From positions 1 to 49,940 of the forward strand of contig JAGCDF010000042.1 in assembly GCA_017651225.1 (NCBI GenBank): a stretch of DNA of 49,940 bases, read 5' to 3'. This document shows positions 2,358 to 10,238 of this stretch, piece by piece (the stretch's first letter is position 1; every line of letters begins with the position of its first letter). Origin of the DNA: Bacteroidales bacterium (lineage in GTDB: Bacteria > Bacteroidota > Bacteroidia > Bacteroidales > UBA932). The position numbers and the translations under genes were made by a program. The notes beneath the pieces were generated by a model that did no database searches, had not been told where the DNA came from, and saw nothing but the letters and a program-made list of their open reading frames with translations.

Positions 2358-3125
2358 ATGATTCGAACCCTAATCAGAATTCTGCTTCCGCTGGCGCTGG
2401 CGCTGCTCTGCGCCGGCTGCTCCGCCCGCGTGAAACAATATAAGGTGGAAGTCGTGAAGGAATACCCGCACGACACGGGCGCGTACACGCAAGGCCTCTT
2501 CTTCGACGGCGGCCGCTTCTACGAGAGCACGGGCCAGTTCGGCGAGTCGGGCTTCCGCGAAGTGGAGCTCGCCACCGGTAAGGTCCTTTCGAAGATGAAC
2601 TTCCAGCAGAAGTACTTCGGCGAGGGCTCCGTGATGCTGGGCGGCAACCTCTACATCCTGACCTGGCTGAACAAGGTCGCCTTCGTCTACGACGCGAAGA
2701 CGCTCGAATACAAGCAGACCTATTCCTACCCGCGCGAGGGCTGGGGCCTGACCACGGACGGCAAGTCCCTGATCGCCTCGGACGGCTCCGCGCGCCTGTA
2801 TTTCCTCTCTCCGGAATTCAAGCAGGAGCGCTACGTGGACGTGAAGATGGACGGCCGCCCTGTGCGCAACCTCAACGAGCTGGAATACATCGACGGCAAG
2901 GTCTGGGCGAACGTCTACATGACCGACCTCATCGTCGTCATCAACCCCGCGGACGGCACCGTGGAGGCCAGCATCGACTGCACCGGCCTGCTGCCGCGTA
3001 ACTTGCGCGAACCCCGCACGGACGTGCTGAACGGCATCGCGCAGGATCCCGCCACCGGCAAGATTTACCTGACGGGCAAGTACTGGCCCCGCCTCTACGA
3101 AGTCCGGCTCGTCCCGGCGAAATAA
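2358..3125 (+). CDS. Glutaminyl-peptide cyclotransferase, lipoprotein (beta-propeller type)
   Basis: A 255-residue enzyme of the plant/bacterial glutaminyl cyclase family (Glu_cyclase_2), which converts N-terminal glutamine of proteins or peptides to pyroglutamate. An N-terminal hydrophobic segment ends in the lipobox LLCAGC, so the mature protein should be lipid-anchored from Cys21. The diagnostic region is PHDTGAYTQGLFFDGGRFYE, followed by propeller repeats and, near the end, NGIAQDP with TGKYWPRLYEV. Pyroglutamate formation is common on exported Bacteroidota proteins, consistent with an envelope location. It is monocistronic, with its own promoter and terminator. Confidence 0.9.
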   Translation: MIRTLIRILLPLALALLCAGCSARVKQYKVEVVKEYPHDTGAYTQGLFFDGGRFYESTGQFGESGFREVELATGKVLSKMNFQQKYFGEGSVMLGGNLYILTWLNKVAFVYDAKTLEYKQTYSYPREGWGLTTDGKSLIASDGSARLYFLSPEFKQERYVDVKMDGRPVRNLNELEYIDGKVWANVYMTDLIVVINPADGTVEASIDCTGLLPRNLREPRTDVLNGIAQDPATGKIYLTGKYWPRLYEVRLVPAK

Positions 3126-3146: not shown

Positions 3147-3175
3147 ACAAGCGCCTTTGCAGGTGCTTGTTTTTT
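3147..3175. terminator. Bidirectional hairpin terminator left of the integrated element
   Basis: A 10-bp stem (3147-3156 with 3161-3170, one G-T pair) with loop TTGC is followed by TTTTT on the plus strand and by a T run on the minus strand. On the plus strand it ends the glutaminyl cyclase transcript. Before the element inserted, it would have lain directly behind tRNA-Asn on the minus strand and probably ended that transcript too. Confidence 0.8.
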
Positions 3176-3178
3176 GTT

Positions 3179-3186
3179 GCTCCCCC
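3179..3186 (+). repeat. attL core, GCTCCCCC
   Basis: Eight bases identical to 9129-9136 in the tRNA-Asn 3' end. It lies 3 bases after the T run of the host terminator and is followed at once by AT-richer sequence. It is short, so the repeat alone would be weak evidence; the matching integrase reading frame on both sides supports it. Confidence 0.6.
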
Positions 3187-3187
3187 A

Positions 3188-3316
3188 AGTGTCGAATTGT
3201 TGAACCTGTGGAACGATTTCCTCAAGGTCGTTGAATTCATTCAGCAAAACGAAGGTTGGCTGCGTCCGCTACTTAACAAGGTTCAGCGGAAAGTACATTT
3301 ACAAGCGGGTACGTAA
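3188..3316 (+). other. Detached C-terminal coding segment of the serine integrase
   Basis: Read in the frame that continues the integrase across the att core, this stretch gives 42 codons followed by TAA (3314-3316). The peptide includes LWNDFLKVVEFIQQNEGWL and RPLLNKVQRKVHLQ, an amphipathic, protein-like sequence with ordinary codons. It has no start codon of its own in this frame. It is inferred to be the original integrase tail in the circular element, separated from its gene by integration. Confidence 0.6.
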
Positions 3317-3806: not shown

Positions 3807-4736
3807 GTGACCACATTTGATAAGATTAAACTTGTTGCTAACATAGATACGATAAAAGATTATGATGAGAATCAGTTTGAGAAAATTGAGAAAGATGGTA
3901 ACATCGCATATAAGTTTTACCAAGAGACACCATACCTTCTACTCATTAAGATTGACTATTCCAAGCATGAAGTAGTCATCGAATTTACAGGCAAAATTTT
4001 AGGCAGAGATTACCCCAAACTCATCTCATCCGCTACCATCCGACAATGTTTCCACAACATCAATGCAAGTGGGATTATCAGCCTTGATGTTGAGGCCATG
4101 ATGGATGCTGATGTAGTTAAATGTGATGTCACGCGAGACATTCCGTTTGACGATATTCCTCGCCTTACGAACTATGTACGCACACATACCTGCAACTACC
4201 AAAGATACATTTGCCGAAAACTCACAAACGGCAATTTAGTAGTTGAAAAGAATGTGGTCACAAAGAAGACCAAGAAAAGAATGACGATATACGATAAAGG
4301 CAAAGAGATGCGCAAAAAGGAAAACCAACGATTTGTAGAGGCGTATGGTTTAGATGGCAAATTTGATGGCATCTGCCGCTTTGAAATAAACCTCAACACT
4401 AAGGAGCAAATTCGAGCCGCGCTCGGAACAAACAACACCAAACTCAAGACTGTTTTAGCATCAGAAACGAACCCAATACTTAACTTCCTTGACGATGTGG
4501 TCGATGCTACCTCAACACCTGATGCTATAACCGACAGGAAATCTTACTTCACGATGTTGGTATTGAAAGATTGTGATTTCGATTTAGAGAAGGTTGAGGC
4601 CAAAATGCGAATGCTCTATCCAAGTCGCGGCACAAGCATTCGTGAAATCATGCAGCCATACCGACAAATGATGGAGCGAATAAGCGATTCGGAAAACGCC
4701 TCCTTTTGGGACGGCATACGCCACCAACTTTTATGA
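3807..4736 (+). CDS. Phage/plasmid replication protein, gene II/X (G2P) family
   Basis: 309 residues from a GTG start; no early ATG exists in frame. The N-terminal TFDKIKLVANI, the central KRMTIYDKGKEMRKKENQ and the following ICRFEINLNTKEQIRAAL resemble the filamentous-phage and plasmid II/X replication proteins (Phage_CRI type), which nick one strand to start rolling-circle replication. The length fits that family, but the catalytic tyrosines cannot be assigned with certainty from the sequence alone. It implies that the element replicates as a circle after excision. The unlike codon use and low GC compared with the host are clear. Confidence 0.65.
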   Translation: MTTFDKIKLVANIDTIKDYDENQFEKIEKDGNIAYKFYQETPYLLLIKIDYSKHEVVIEFTGKILGRDYPKLISSATIRQCFHNINASGIISLDVEAMMDADVVKCDVTRDIPFDDIPRLTNYVRTHTCNYQRYICRKLTNGNLVVEKNVVTKKTKKRMTIYDKGKEMRKKENQRFVEAYGLDGKFDGICRFEINLNTKEQIRAALGTNNTKLKTVLASETNPILNFLDDVVDATSTPDAITDRKSYFTMLVLKDCDFDLEKVEAKMRMLYPSRGTSIREIMQPYRQMMERISDSENASFWDGIRHQLL

Positions 4737-4844: not shown

Positions 4845-6131
4845 TTAGAGCCCTGCTTTAATGTAAGTCCCGACTAATTGTTCCACCTTTTTCGGCATTA
4901 CCCATTCTGCCAAATCGTGCCTCTTACAAAGACCATTAAACTCTAAAGCCAAGCCGACAATCTGCTTATATAACTCTCGTTCAGGAGCAAGAATATCGGA
5001 TTTGGAAGACCTTGCATACTCGGGCACGGTAAGGTACATACTAACATCCTTTAAGGCTTGGATTTGTTCCTCCACTTCACGTTGGGCCTTCTTTTCAATT
5101 GATTGCCTTTCTTCATAGGTTAGATTATTCCGAGGGGCACCAACAACTGAACTGACCTCTTTCCCCGTAAGACTGACTTGAGTTCCATCCATATAAGTGA
5201 TGGTGATGCCTATAATGCGTAATGACTTTGCACTCCAGTTGTAAATGATGGTCTCCCATGTGCAGGTTTTTTCCATATTGGGTGGTACTGGCCCCGTCAC
5301 GCGACCTTCAATCAGACTTCTCTGCCGAATAGTACAAGAAACAATATCATCAACTGCATTATAGGCATTCCCTTTCCAATCAAGGTATTTGATGTCTTTA
5401 GAAGAAGTGTTCGTAAAGACCATCGTGTAGTCACATCCTGAAGCAGTATTGGGCGAAGACAGGCTGGAGCGTGATATGGTTAAGTATTTAGATGCCTTCT
5501 TCCTTGCATCATTTTCTCCTACCCAGTCGTTATACTTACTTGTAATCTCCTCCTTTTTTTGTGCAGTCATTACGGCAATAATGGAATCCTTCAAACTCTT
5601 CTCCTTTTCAGTCAGTACTGATAATTCATTAGATGCCTTCTCTGCCTTCGCGGAGACACTATTGAAGAACTCGCGGGTAAGATTCTCAATGTTATCTTTA
5701 AGCGATTGATATTGATTACGGATATCATTGTTCTTAGCGTCTATCAGGCTGTTGTCAGGACAAGATTCTTTTGACAAGAAGCATACCTGCCCGTTATATT
5801 CAACAATGTAATAATCGTATTCATACAAGTCTGGCTCAGACTTTATAAAACCAATCACAGGAATGTCTGAATTCTCGGAAACTCTGGTCTTTTTTAACAA
5901 TCCCGAATTGCCTACATACCTGTCACTCTTCTCATCGGTTTTGCGTGCCTCCAGAATACGTTCTACTTCATAGTCGCTCATGAGGGCATTAAGCACAGTC
6001 TTTTTGGGAACAAAGACCGTATGAGAGTTATCGGGGTAATACTGCCGAACATCTTGTGCAAGGGTGTGGCTTGAACCAATCCACAAGAAGAAAACGAGTA
6101 GTGTAATTAATGTGGCTCTTGTTGCTTTCAT
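4845..6131 (-). CDS. Secreted protein of unknown function (element cargo)
   Basis: 428 residues from ATG 6131, which starts a signal peptide (MKATRATLITLLVFFLWIGS, then SHTLAQD); a TTG 24 bases upstream is less likely. After about 100 residues of globular sequence comes a Lys/Glu-rich helical, probably coiled-coil section (about 115-200). Next is a region with TNTSSKDIKYLDWKGNAYNA that looks like an extracellular beta-sandwich, and then a helical C-terminus. I recognise no family. It faces away from rep and probably has its own promoter. It could be a surface or exclusion protein, but nothing in the sequence proves a role. Confidence 0.75.
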   Translation of the reverse strand: MKATRATLITLLVFFLWIGSSHTLAQDVRQYYPDNSHTVFVPKKTVLNALMSDYEVERILEARKTDEKSDRYVGNSGLLKKTRVSENSDIPVIGFIKSEPDLYEYDYYIVEYNGQVCFLSKESCPDNSLIDAKNNDIRNQYQSLKDNIENLTREFFNSVSAKAEKASNELSVLTEKEKSLKDSIIAVMTAQKKEEITSKYNDWVGENDARKKASKYLTISRSSLSSPNTASGCDYTMVFTNTSSKDIKYLDWKGNAYNAVDDIVSCTIRQRSLIEGRVTGPVPPNMEKTCTWETIIYNWSAKSLRIIGITITYMDGTQVSLTGKEVSSVVGAPRNNLTYEERQSIEKKAQREVEEQIQALKDVSMYLTVPEYARSSKSDILAPERELYKQIVGLALEFNGLCKRHDLAEWVMPKKVEQLVGTYIKAGL

Positions 6132-6152
6132 AATGGGCGGGGTTAATCTATA

Positions 6153-6160
6153 CAAAGATA
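6153..6160 (-). promoter_or_regulatory. -7 box for the secreted cargo protein
   Basis: TATCTTTG on the minus strand fits TAnnTTTG exactly and ends 21 bases before the ATG at 6131. No clear -33 TTTG is at the usual distance. Confidence 0.45.
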
Positions 6161-6176
6161 CTCAAAGAATGATAAA

Positions 6177-6413
6177 CTACAATTTCCGTTTAGATGTGAT
6201 GATTATTCCTCTACGAATGATGCATTTGCCGTTGCGGAATGGCTTTTCCTCTGATATGTTGAGATTTTTTAGATAACTGTGTGACACACCGATAATGTCT
6301 TTCGGCCAGTGGTCACAGAGGGCTTTTAGATTTCCATAATAGTAGTGCTTGCCATCTACTTCAAGATGGACAATGACACGCACTTGTTTCTTCTTTTCTA
6401 CCATTTCCAGCAT
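6177..6413 (-). CDS. Small protein of unknown function
   Basis: 78 residues (or 75 from the ATG at 6404). It is basic and looks like a small folded domain: strands with VIVHLEVDGKHYYYGNLKAL, then SYLKNLNISEEKPFRNGKCIIRRG. It sits just upstream of the secreted protein, in the same direction, and has a TAnnTTTG box immediately before it. Similar short proteins occur on Bacteroidota elements, but I cannot name the family; a transcription or replication accessory role is possible. Confidence 0.55.
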   Translation of the reverse strand: MLEMVEKKKQVRVIVHLEVDGKHYYYGNLKALCDHWPKDIIGVSHSYLKNLNISEEKPFRNGKCIIRRGIIITSKRKL

Positions 6414-6431: not shown

Positions 6432-6570
6432 AACAAAAAATGGCTAAGATTCATAAAAGGCAATATTTTCTTGCATATTTTAAAAAAAAGCCGTAAATTT
6501 ACAATGTGATTAAAGCACAATAAGAAGGGTGACAGATTTTGATAGTTTAAAACCATAAAAATTGACGCAC

Positions 6571-7203
6571 ATGGAGAAGGTTGTGATTTTGGCAAGAGTA
6601 AGCACGAGCAAACAAGAATACCAGCGGCAAGTGTATGAACTGAACGACTACTGCAATCGCGTTGGTTGGAGCGTTGAAGCAGAATTCTGCAACAAAGTGA
6701 GCGGAGCAAAGAGCATTGAGGAACGAGCAGAGATACAAGAACTCCTCAAGTATGTCAAGACGAACAATATCAGCCGTGTCGTTTGCCTATCCATTGATAG
6801 GCTTGGGCGTAACACCCTTGAGGCGCTGAAAGTTATTCAGACCCTCACCGATAATGGTGTTAGTTTGTATGTTAAAAACTACAACCTTGAGACCCTAAAC
6901 GATGGCAAAATTAACCCAGTCGCAAGCCTCATCTGCACCATCCTTTTGGAGATAGCCAGTATGGAGCGCCTTACCATTAAAGAACGCATGACCAGCGGGC
7001 GCAATCAGTACATTGCCAAGTGCCGCAGAGAGGGCATCAAGATGGGGCGACCTGCAAGTTACCGCAAGTCTGACGCAGCCTACAAGCAGCAGTATACCAA
7101 AGAAATCAGCCTCCTTAAAAAAGGCATCAGTTATCGCAATATCTCGGCTATTACAGGGACGAGCGTTAATACATTAAGGCGGATAAAAGCCATCATCCAA
7201 TAA
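6571..7203 (+). CDS. Serine recombinase, resolvase/invertase type
   Basis: 210 residues starting at ATG 6571 (a TTG 9 bases upstream is rejected). The catalytic serine is Ser11 in LARVSTSKQ. The resolvase domain continues through VVCLSIDRLGRNTLEAL to the E helix with ASMERLTIKERM, and the C-terminus carries a helix-turn-helix (ISYRNISAITGTSVNTLRRI). This is the standard small-resolvase build. On this element it could resolve multimers from rolling-circle replication, invert a segment, or act with the larger integrase. Its own recombination site is probably in the spacers on either side. Confidence 0.9.
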   Translation: MEKVVILARVSTSKQEYQRQVYELNDYCNRVGWSVEAEFCNKVSGAKSIEERAEIQELLKYVKTNNISRVVCLSIDRLGRNTLEALKVIQTLTDNGVSLYVKNYNLETLNDGKINPVASLICTILLEIASMERLTIKERMTSGRNQYIAKCRREGIKMGRPASYRKSDAAYKQQYTKEISLLKKGISYRNISAITGTSVNTLRRIKAIIQ

Positions 7204-7399: not shown

Positions 7400-7552
7400 T
7401 TGGAAAACATAAGATTAACCACAGATGAGATACGCAGTTTTAAAGGTTACGAGAACATAACGGAAGAACAAGCCAATCAGATGGCTGTTTTTTTATCCCT
7501 ATTTGCAACGATAATTTATGAAAAACTGAACGACAATGGAACAATTGAATAA
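7400..7552 (+). CDS. Tiny protein overlapping the integrase start
   Basis: A 50-residue frame from TTG 7400 to TAA 7552, overlapping the integrase ATG at 7536. The peptide (TTDEIRSFKGYENITEEQA, then NQMAVFLSLFATIIYEKL) is well formed: an acidic helix-rich start and an amphipathic helix. The frame is closed by a TAA at 7391, and no better start exists upstream. The overlap suggests translational coupling with the integrase. A recombination directionality factor is one possibility, but this is only a guess from size and position. Confidence 0.45.
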   Translation: MENIRLTTDEIRSFKGYENITEEQANQMAVFLSLFATIIYEKLNDNGTIE

Positions 7553-9164
7553 CAATATTTTAAGCCAGTTTGGCAAAGGAAAGAAAACGACCTTAAAAGT
7601 GGGCGGCAGAGCCGTCATATACCAACGCGTCAGCAGCAAGGAACAAGAAGATGGGTTCAGTCCTGAGACGCAGTTGGAGCGATGCCATGAATGGGCAAAT
7701 CGCCACCAATACGAAGTTGTGAAATGCTTCGATGGTGAGCATGAAAGCGCCAAGAGCGATGCAAATCGAAGGCGTTTTAACGCAATGCTGAAATATGTAA
7801 TGGACAAGCGGAACAAGATTGATGCGGTCATTGTATATAGTACAAGCCGTTTCTCACGAACGGGAACAAAGTCCTTTTCTATCGTGGATGAACTGATGGA
7901 AAAGGGCATTCCCGTCTTTTCTGCTACCTCGTCATATGACGCTCGAACGGCTGATGGTAGGATGATGCAAGGAGTTGAACTCCTAATGGCAGAACATGAT
8001 AACTCAGTAAAAGCACAGGCGGTTAGAGATAGTGGAGCAAAAGCGCTGAGGAATGGCAGATGGGTAAATGATACGCCTATGGGATATGACATGAAAACTA
8101 CAAGAGCCCACCAGACTATCACCGTTACTGCCGAAGGAGAACTGATTAGAAAAGCGTTCCAAATGAAAGCAGATGAAAACCTCACCAATGAGGAAGTTGG
8201 CAAGCGAATGAAAGCAATGGGGTTGGATTTAGATAAGCGAAGGTGGTCTAAAATATTCCACAACATTTTCTACGCTGGCTATTTTTCTCACCCTTATTTG
8301 GAGGGCGAAGTCATCAAGGGAACACAAGAGCCATTGGTCTCGTTAGAGGATTTCTTAAAAATCAACAATATTGTATTACAGGCCCATAGTCGCGGTTATG
8401 AGACCAAGACAGACAAGGAATATGCTCCGCTAATCGGAACAATCAAATGTCCGCATTGCGGCCATAACCTGACCGCTTCATTAAGCACCAAGATGCGCAA
8501 AAAGTTCGGCAAGGAAGTCGGTTATTATGTTTGCAGTCACAAGGGGTGTAAATGCAATGCTGCTACCAAGAAAGTCAATGGAGCATTCACTGAGTGGATG
8601 GATAGCGTATCCCTTCCTGAAGCCCACACAGAACTATTGACGGCATACCTAAAAGATGTATTTCCCATTCTCAACAAGCGTAATCAGGACGAAGTAGCAG
8701 CCATTAGAACCAACTTGGCCAAGAAGGAAAATGACATCGAAAGAATAGAGTACAATCTTGCCACGGCTCCAAATGCAAAAGCGTTGGAAACCTGCACAAG
8801 AATGCTCGAAAAAGCGGAAGCCGAAAGGGATGAGATAAAGCAAGAACTTGCGGAGAGAGACAAATCCATATTGAACCTCAACGATTTCATCGAATATGGC
8901 TTGGGGATAAAAGATAATATGTTGAAATTGTGGCAGATAGCAAAACTCGGTGACAAACACCGTTTGCAAAACCTCATTTTTCCTGATGGAATTGTTTGGG
9001 ACAAAGAAAACGAGGATATTGAACCTATCAGCAAGAATGAATTCCTATTCTTATTCGACACGAATTCAATGAGTTGCAAAGACAAAGAAAAAGGACAAAC
9101 CCTCAAAAATGAAGATTTGTCCGCTTTGGCTCCCCCTCGGGGACTTGAACCCAGGACCCCCTGA
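7536..9164 (+). CDS. Large serine recombinase (element integrase), C-terminus altered by integration
   Basis: 542 residues. Domains in order: resolvase-like catalytic domain with Ser33 in IYQRVSSKEQ (about 25-170), recombinase DNA-binding domain (about 180-290), zinc ribbon with CPHC near 312 and CSHKGC near 335, and a coiled coil rich in Lys/Glu (about 385-440). This is a typical large serine integrase. The last residues, from Ala532 (APPRGLEPRTP), are translated from the 3' part of the tRNA-Asn gene on the other strand, and the stop at 9162-9164 lies inside that gene. In a circular form the frame would instead run on into 3188-3316, giving a protein of about 576 residues. It presumably catalyses attP x attB at tRNA-Asn. 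Confidence 0.9.
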   Translation: MEQLNNNILSQFGKGKKTTLKVGGRAVIYQRVSSKEQEDGFSPETQLERCHEWANRHQYEVVKCFDGEHESAKSDANRRRFNAMLKYVMDKRNKIDAVIVYSTSRFSRTGTKSFSIVDELMEKGIPVFSATSSYDARTADGRMMQGVELLMAEHDNSVKAQAVRDSGAKALRNGRWVNDTPMGYDMKTTRAHQTITVTAEGELIRKAFQMKADENLTNEEVGKRMKAMGLDLDKRRWSKIFHNIFYAGYFSHPYLEGEVIKGTQEPLVSLEDFLKINNIVLQAHSRGYETKTDKEYAPLIGTIKCPHCGHNLTASLSTKMRKKFGKEVGYYVCSHKGCKCNAATKKVNGAFTEWMDSVSLPEAHTELLTAYLKDVFPILNKRNQDEVAAIRTNLAKKENDIERIEYNLATAPNAKALETCTRMLEKAEAERDEIKQELAERDKSILNLNDFIEYGLGIKDNMLKLWQIAKLGDKHRLQNLIFPDGIVWDKENEDIEPISKNEFLFLFDTNSMSCKDKEKGQTLKNEDLSALAPPRGLEPRTP

Positions 9165-9203
9165 TTAACAGTCAGGTGCTCTAACCAACTGAGCTAAGGA
9201 GGA
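9127..9203 (-). tRNA. tRNA-Asn (GTT), integration target
   Basis: A cloverleaf on the minus strand from 9203: acceptor TCCTCCT paired with AGGGGGA (one T-G pair), anticodon loop CTGTTAA with GTT, T loop TTCAAGT. The T stem has one mismatch (T50 against C64). CCA is encoded at 9129-9127. These last bases are donated by the element side, because the left junction would give GCAA instead. Confidence 0.95.
9129..9136 (+). repeat. attR core, GCTCCCCC
   Basis: Identical to 3179-3186. It covers the discriminator base, most of the 3' strand of the acceptor stem and the first C of CCA of tRNA-Asn, so recombination here leaves the tRNA intact. Confidence 0.6.
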
Positions 9204-9356: not shown

Positions 9357-10238
9357 ATGGATATCGATTTACTGTCCAGAATGGTGGGCGAACTGATCCT
9401 CGAACACGATCAGGTAGGCCTGCCCGGTGTCGGCACCTTTGTCGCCGAGATGGTCCCGGCGACCTTCTCCGACAAGGGCTACACCATCCATCCCCCCTAC
9501 CGGCGGCTTTCCTTCTACCCCAGCCGCCTCGAGGACAGCCTCCTCATCAAGTTTTACGCTGAATCCAACCAGATCACACGCGAAGCGGCCGCCGCTTATA
9601 TCACCCAGTACCTCGCCGAGCTGAAAGGCGTGCTCGAGGAGCGCAAGACCATTGTGCTGCCGGGCCTGGGCCGCCTGCGCGCCACGCGGGAGAACACGCT
9701 GTTCTTCGTCCCGGACGAGGACCTGAACATCTACCCCGCCGGCGTGGGGCTGGAGCCCGTCTCGCTGAAGAGCCTGGCCGAGGGAGAGGAGCAGGAGCCC
9801 GTCGTCATCGACGTCCCGGCGCCCGTGGTGGAGCCGGAACCCGAGCCGGAGCCTGCACCCGAACCCGAGCCCGTACCGGAAACGGAATCCGAGCCGGAAC
9901 CGGAACCGAAAACGATCCCCGACGAGCTGGTTCAGGAGATTGCCGATCAGGTCGGCAATGACGAAGGCACTGTCAGCAATGACGAAGAACTGCCGAAGGA
10001 ACAGGTCGAGGAGGAAGAGCGGCGCACGCCGCCGACCACCTACCCCGCCGCCTGGATTCACGACGACTGGAAGGAGCCCGTGCGCAAGGGCCTTCCGGGC
10101 ATCGTCGTCTTTCTGCTTATCCTCATCGGACTGGCCATCCTGGGACTCGTCGCCTTCGTGGTCCTGGCGCGCGTGGCGCCCGACTTCATCGACACCCTGC
10201 TGTACACCCCGGACGAGCTGCGGATCATCAACTACTGA
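9357..10238 (+). CDS. HU-CCDC81-like protein with acidic linker and C-terminal membrane segment
   Basis: 293 residues from ATG 9357; the frame is open further upstream, but only from there does the sequence look like the family. Residues 1-120 (DLLSRMVGELILEHDQVGLP; later KTIVLPGLGRLR) resemble the tandem HU/IHF-fold domain of the bacterial HU-CCDC81 family. A Pro-Glu-rich linker (about 150-190) follows, then a short in-frame palindromic-repeat insertion (about 194-212) and one transmembrane helix (GIVVFLLILIGLAILGLVAF). In Bacteroidota such proteins link an HU-like fold to an envelope domain; the exact role is unknown. It is followed 4 bases later by the Nudix gene, so they are probably co-transcribed. 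Confidence 0.7.
   Translation: MDIDLLSRMVGELILEHDQVGLPGVGTFVAEMVPATFSDKGYTIHPPYRRLSFYPSRLEDSLLIKFYAESNQITREAAAAYITQYLAELKGVLEERKTIVLPGLGRLRATRENTLFFVPDEDLNIYPAGVGLEPVSLKSLAEGEEQEPVVIDVPAPVVEPEPEPEPAPEPEPVPETESEPEPEPKTIPDELVQEIADQVGNDEGTVSNDEELPKEQVEEEERRTPPTTYPAAWIHDDWKEPVRKGLPGIVVFLLILIGLAILGLVAFVVLARVAPDFIDTLLYTPDELRIINY
9939..9962. repeat. Palindromic repeat, in frame in the HU-like protein
   Basis: Arms ATTGCCGA and TCGGCAAT with loop TCAGG, followed by GAC, and a degenerate half copy at 9974-9985 (GTCAGCAATGAC). It is read in frame as IADQVGND. Same architecture and loop as the copy in the transporter gene at 13461. Confidence 0.65.

Follow-up and report, generated by a model that had tools for sequence, protein, structure and literature searches.

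The large serine recombinases described here form what we read as a clade of tRNA-targeting integrases that would lose a conserved C-terminal segment upon integration. Our reference case lies in a window of 49,940 nucleotides, the whole stretch of DNA analyzed, from a Bacteroidales bacterium (assembly GCA_017651225.1, contig JAGCDF010000042.1; source genome 78.7% complete). We hold it highly probable that attP sits within the integrase gene, close to its 3′ end, and that the tail encoded beyond it is lost at integration, with a probable change in the activity of the enzyme. The layout, the in-frame join, the conservation of the tail and the generality of the arrangement are borne out by comparison of sequences; that integration changes the activity of the enzyme is most likely, by analogy with the integrase of Myxococcus phage Mx8.

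The integrative element, a small mobile unit from gut bacteria, spans 5.95 kb and carries a copy of GCTCCCCC at each end, one end lying inside the 3′ end of an intact tRNA-Asn(gtt) gene (9127..9203, minus strand; ARAGORN), which is the target site. The integrase frame (7536..9164, plus strand) enters this gene in antisense and terminates there as APPRGLEPRTP, as the sequence-only reading had noted and as the ORF list and ARAGORN confirm; the post-junction codons of the integrated gene are the antisense strand of the tRNA. The crossover regions are the two copies of the repeat: the right one (9129..9136, plus strand), within the 3′ end of the tRNA gene, belongs to the integrase side of the element and the left one (3179..3186, plus strand) to the tail side. 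Joining the right end to the left end at GCTCCCCC keeps the frame (GCT CCC CCA), adds 42 codons and then reaches TAA, yielding 576 residues in place of the 542 of the integrated form; the repeat, the join and both lengths, all proposed earlier, were reproduced from the letters. The detached 3′ end of the gene (3179..3316, plus strand) consists of APP, common with the body, the 42 further codons (3188-3313) and TAA, and the tail that it encodes includes SVELLNLWNDFLKVVEFIQQNEGWLRPLL and appears helix-like when read by eye. The integrase contains the resolvase N-terminal catalytic domain (PF00239, E 1.4e-25) and the recombinase domain (PF07508, 24.9 bits vs a cut-off of 21.1; E 2.5e-5; above the cut-off in a further scan too). 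A zinc-ribbon-like stretch scores just below the cut-off of PF13408 (23.4 vs 25.3 bits), and S33, which we take to be the catalytic serine, is invariant in all 18 aligned rows. The integrated protein retains the catalytic and recombinase domains and the zinc-ribbon-like stretch, and the conserved C-terminal segment is gone. The tRNA-matching fragment on the opposite side of the element is just 8 nt in the window, the longest matches in relatives being 4-21 nt. If the window stood alone, a repeat of 8 nt followed by roughly 45 open codons would be weak evidence; the case is strong because homologues agree.

Between its ends the element carries an ORF of 309 aa (3807..4736, plus strand) that gave no Pfam match over the cut-off and, at E 0.01, no match in either PHROGs or NCBIfam; an ORF of 436 aa (4845..6155, minus strand) with a hydrophobic N terminus by eye and no family match in Pfam, PHROGs or NCBIfam; and an ORF of 78 aa (6177..6413, minus strand) that matches phrog_10608, of unknown function (E 8.5e-13). 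A small serine recombinase of the resolvase/invertase type (6562..7203, plus strand; PF00239 E 7.4e-28 and PHROG DNA invertase E 6.7e-32, both computed on 6574-7200) adjoins the integrase, and matching DNA is found at that place in L020, a tRNA-Asn element with a 74% identical integrase. This protein perhaps serves in resolving circles.

Homologues of the integrase occur in 17 of 199 same-family genomes (its own included), at 18 places, and at every one of these an antisense tRNA gene, for Asn, Leu, Met, His or Arg, overlaps the integrase frame. By profile search, homologues turned up in 49 genomes out of 398 from the same family and 24 out of 295 from the same order, its own counted in both, and part of these were fetched as loci. 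The host is probably related to Candidatus Coprenecus and Cryptobacteroides: the locus in same-family genome G098 matches a Candidatus Coprenecus record, and Cryptobacteroides is a member of that family. Among the 58 loci examined, which include the first 18, ARAGORN placed a tRNA overlap in 48, and three of the ten without one (L130-L132) are distant recombinases. Named genomes were scanned as well and gave 90 relatives, of which the best 80 were kept; nearly all are from Bacteroidota and one is labelled Bacillales, and 68 of the 80 overlap a tRNA gene; 12 loci are common to the 58-locus and 80-locus sets. At least nine kinds of tRNA gene serve as end points for dozens of related serine recombinases; their tRNA-derived suffixes run from few to many residues and are also very variable in sequence, and most of the integrase bodies examined remain open while integrated. 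Three related integrases from Bacteroidaceae (L155, L166, L202) have SVPRP as their ending, after which comes unrelated sequence without a convincing tRNA; the far-end tail is still there in L155 and L202, and such ends may reflect another target or damage.

The other three tRNA-Asn elements carry the tail homologues implied by the sequence-only reading, located 3.6-8.1 kb upstream of their integrase genes, with 62% (L107, E 7e-12), 61% (L108, 2e-11) and 52% (L020, 3e-7) identity to the window tail. In all four tRNA-Asn elements the join made at the 3′ end of the tRNA is in frame; in the wider comparison, a second match of the same length (7 nt) occurs in L108 and L020, out of frame and deeper in the tRNA. 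A second form of the tail, LFSNxFLxDLxKIWxLRxxIPDP, was modelled as an HMM built from nine tails. In 48 of the 80 named loci this HMM made exactly one strong match (E below 1e-3) and no strong match elsewhere, and all 48 matches, eight of which are in seed elements, lie on the plus strand, that of the integrase, and upstream of it. Where at least 8.5 kb of upstream sequence was present the HMM matched in 43 of 51 loci, the eight without a match being L159, L170, L172, L184, L188, L195, L196 and L210. A third form is found in the Met group (L022, L100, L026, L099, L106). From the alignment, by eye, we take all three forms to be versions of a single homologous segment (LSN..., ...KVVEF). No tail was found at tRNA-Leu(tag/gag) loci or in the fetched members of other families of the order, some of these contigs being too short. 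A de novo tail search in tail-less elements settled L027 and L033 only, both at tRNA-His; for L033 a left end at a 16-nt repeat (4027) was rejected, the tail evidence placing it near 5.9 kb.

To examine the frame of the join, we compared the 3′ end of the tRNA with the left end of each element and took the longest identical stretch, frame ignored. The input was 67 elements with a tail, from which five without a detected tRNA were dropped and duplicates removed to leave 54. The join is in frame in 51 of these 54 distinct elements, the window included, and in 48 of the 50 with repeats of at least 5 nt, where one third would be expected in either case, these counts coming from related elements and hence not being independent. 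The failures are L179 (5-nt match), L032 (4-nt match) and L204 (8 nt, out of frame), the last of which is a real exception; in L185 and L163, both in frame, the longest match lies slightly before the likely crossover. The residues at the joint track the tRNA end, being mostly VP or V/VA at Leu, Arg and Met, AP at Asn and GC at His.

Within the in-frame elements, the tail gave pairwise pN/pS values of 0.44 (42 elements, 861 pairs), 0.39 (4 elements including the window, 6 pairs) and 0.53 (5 elements, 10 pairs), with pS exceeding pN in every pair; in the +1 frame, used as a control, pS and pN were about equal, for a ratio of about 1. Judged by these substitution patterns, the tail is under purifying selection as protein, in the integrase frame only. 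The junction itself bears a further signature. In the tRNA-Arg group (seven Prevotella-type elements) the fraction of same-residue codons that differ is 0.43 in the body, 0.04-0.23 over the 15 codons before the junction, 0.00-0.14 over the eight after it and 0.29-0.36 further on. The corresponding values are 0.56, 0.00-0.25, 0.07-0.19 and 0.33-0.59 for the tRNA-Asn group and, from few sites, 0.47, 0.11-0.25, 0.20-0.29 and 0.25-0.70 for the Met group. These are raw fractions and some bins are very small. A synonymous dip at the junction is present in these three of the four groups, and none was seen in the Leu(cag) group, which comprises three elements, two of them nearly identical. Such a dip is what would be expected from a DNA site that spans several tens of bases within coding sequence.

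A tree of the integrases from 48 of the 51 in-frame elements, three short-bodied ones having been dropped, requires 14 changes of tRNA label, and all of its members retain the in-frame tail, a retention that was also the criterion by which the rows were chosen. These results bear on the strongest rival to our explanation, namely that the layout is real but neutral, with the attachment site lying at the integrase 3′ end for historical reasons and either C terminus equally functional. We give this a minor but appreciable share of the probability. It is in keeping with integrase bodies that mostly stay open while integrated and with suffixes so diverse in length and sequence that the integrated form cannot depend on them. 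A dispensable tail, however, would decay or acquire an early stop, whereas the observed tail is under purifying selection and was retained over the target changes on the tree.

It is very unlikely that the far-end peptide is not the end of the integrase but a small gene in its own right or a DNA site. The peptide does lie kilobases from the integrase once the element is integrated, and the attachment site overlaps its beginning, but it joins the integrase in frame at the repeat in nearly all elements and evolves as protein in that frame. It has also been caught fused to an integrase end: in the left flank of L022, 27 integrase-end residues (78% identity to L102, E 3e-8) run in frame into the tail, which we infer to be a scar left where a second element inserted beside an older one that has since decayed. 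L022 was the only left flank among those tested to give such a scar by BLAST. In the left flank of L100, integrase-end residues are apparently fused in frame to the tail by eye, with no BLAST match, and the fusions in L022 and L100 may be what tandem insertion at a single tRNA left behind. Two same-genus loci, L239 and L242, carry tail remnants about 0.7-0.9 kb from tRNA-Asn; near L239 an integrase end still runs into the tRNA (L257, by eye), and the region looks like an internally deleted element.

That 3188-3316 is host DNA, with the frame open over the joint by chance, is vanishingly unlikely: the window repeat is just 8 nt and no empty site of this strain turned up in the relatives checked, yet homologous tails occur in different genomes at different tRNA genes, and a same-genus element-free tRNA-Asn lacks the segment. 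This last locus (L254, in genome G305) carries a tRNA-Asn identical over 75 bases, by eye, and flanked directly by a terminator-like hairpin beside GCTCCCCC, with neither integrase nor tail in the 193 nt up to the contig end. The left flank of the window likewise ends in a terminator-like hairpin and T run (3147..3175; hairpin by eye) just before 3179, which we read as the host DNA that would lie downstream of tRNA-Asn in the empty site. In 26 of the 29 same-genus loci (L215-L243), tRNA-Asn was found next to the gene homologous to the ORF at 9369. The exact empty site of the window strain was not seen because, in G695, G701 and G305, no tRNA is present in the stretch around the homologue of the gene left of the element (2358-3125). 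Together with the in-frame joins and the selection on the tail, the element-free tRNA-Asn lends strong support to the earlier proposal that attP lies inside the integrase gene, with the C terminus exchanged for tRNA-derived residues, and it upholds the assignment of 3188-3316 to the element.

Neither a free contiguous integrase-tail gene nor a circle junction was seen in the collections covered. Viral contigs gave one distant relative (L133). Six plasmid records were matched by the integrase, all distantly (<30% identity among the matches listed), and two tails gave no convincing match among plasmids. Phages, searched with the integrase alone, gave 104 matching records, the 20 listed being distant (<30% identity). 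Among these phage and plasmid records L092 alone was inspected (MT837677.1, labelled Bacteriophage sp., 6.4 kb); its serine integrase frame runs into tRNA-Leu, and it looks like a bacterial contig rather than a phage. Fifteen further matches, many of them fragments, contained no integrase-tail fusion; 12 of them either finish with tRNA-derived residues or stop next to a tRNA.

We propose the following sequence of events. In the free circle the element would encode an enzyme with the conserved C-terminal tail, 576 aa in the window case, and this tailed enzyme would be the integrating form. Recombination with the tRNA-Asn 3′ end would leave the integrase body beside the tRNA and displace the final 42 codons of the gene to the element's opposite end, the C terminus of the integrated enzyme (542 aa) then being supplied by the antisense strand of the tRNA. 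Loss of the tail would lower or redirect activity, making integration self-stabilizing, and excision would restore the full enzyme. A built-in before-and-after switch is suggested because many relatives have the same layout, and because the tRNA-derived suffix is so variable, loss of the tail, rather than gain of the suffix, is likely the functional event.

Phage Mx8 has a tRNA-Asp gene as its target. SSV-type integration splits the integrase gene, whereas a nearly complete enzyme would remain here, and in mycobacteriophages with integration-dependent immunity, integration likewise alters the product of a protein-coding gene that contains attP, that gene being the repressor and not, as here, the integrase. 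According to the available portions of the cited papers, the attP of Mx8 is inside int, integration exchanges a 112-residue C terminus for 13 residues, and the integrated-form integrase is less active (PMC4701971) or of changed specificity (PMC6070905). The elements described here resemble Mx8 in having attP inside int and the C terminus replaced on integration; unlike Mx8, a single phage with a tyrosine integrase, they encode large serine recombinases and are many, in Bacteroidota. In streptococcal rumA ICEs attR lies inside the serine integrase gene, and the integrase of the excised ICE differs in length and C terminus (PMC4701971, in the portion available). These too are serine integrases whose C terminus differs between the integrated and excised states, but their target is a protein gene, they belong to Firmicutes, and a conserved tail is not described in that portion of the paper. 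SSV-type archaeal integrase genes likewise extend across attP (PMC4383910, in part), as here, but encode tyrosine integrases, and Mx8 and the streptococcal ICEs are the closer parallels. No report of the Bacteroidota layout was found in the literature searched, subscription papers falling largely outside its scope. The main text of a large survey of serine recombinases contains no word beginning with tRNA (PMC10083194). Because tRNA-gene attB sites have been counted in species such as Bacteroides fragilis with serine and tyrosine integrases not separated, in the available part of that work (PMC12884075), island databases may already contain such cases unremarked.

Integrases predicted from integrated copies would be missing their genuine C terminus and would have a tRNA-derived one in its place (GLEPRT and the like), a matter of concern to anyone cloning such integrases as tools. 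Somewhat short of probable, though in our view a real possibility, is that the removable tail is a directionality determinant, the tailed enzyme carrying out attP x attB recombination and the tail-less enzyme being locked or preferring attL x attR. The product of integration would then rewrite its own enzyme, replacing a separate directionality factor or acting beside one. If the reading of tail loss at integration holds, these elements would provide natural pairs of tailed and tail-less enzymes with which the direction-setting of serine integrases is directly testable.
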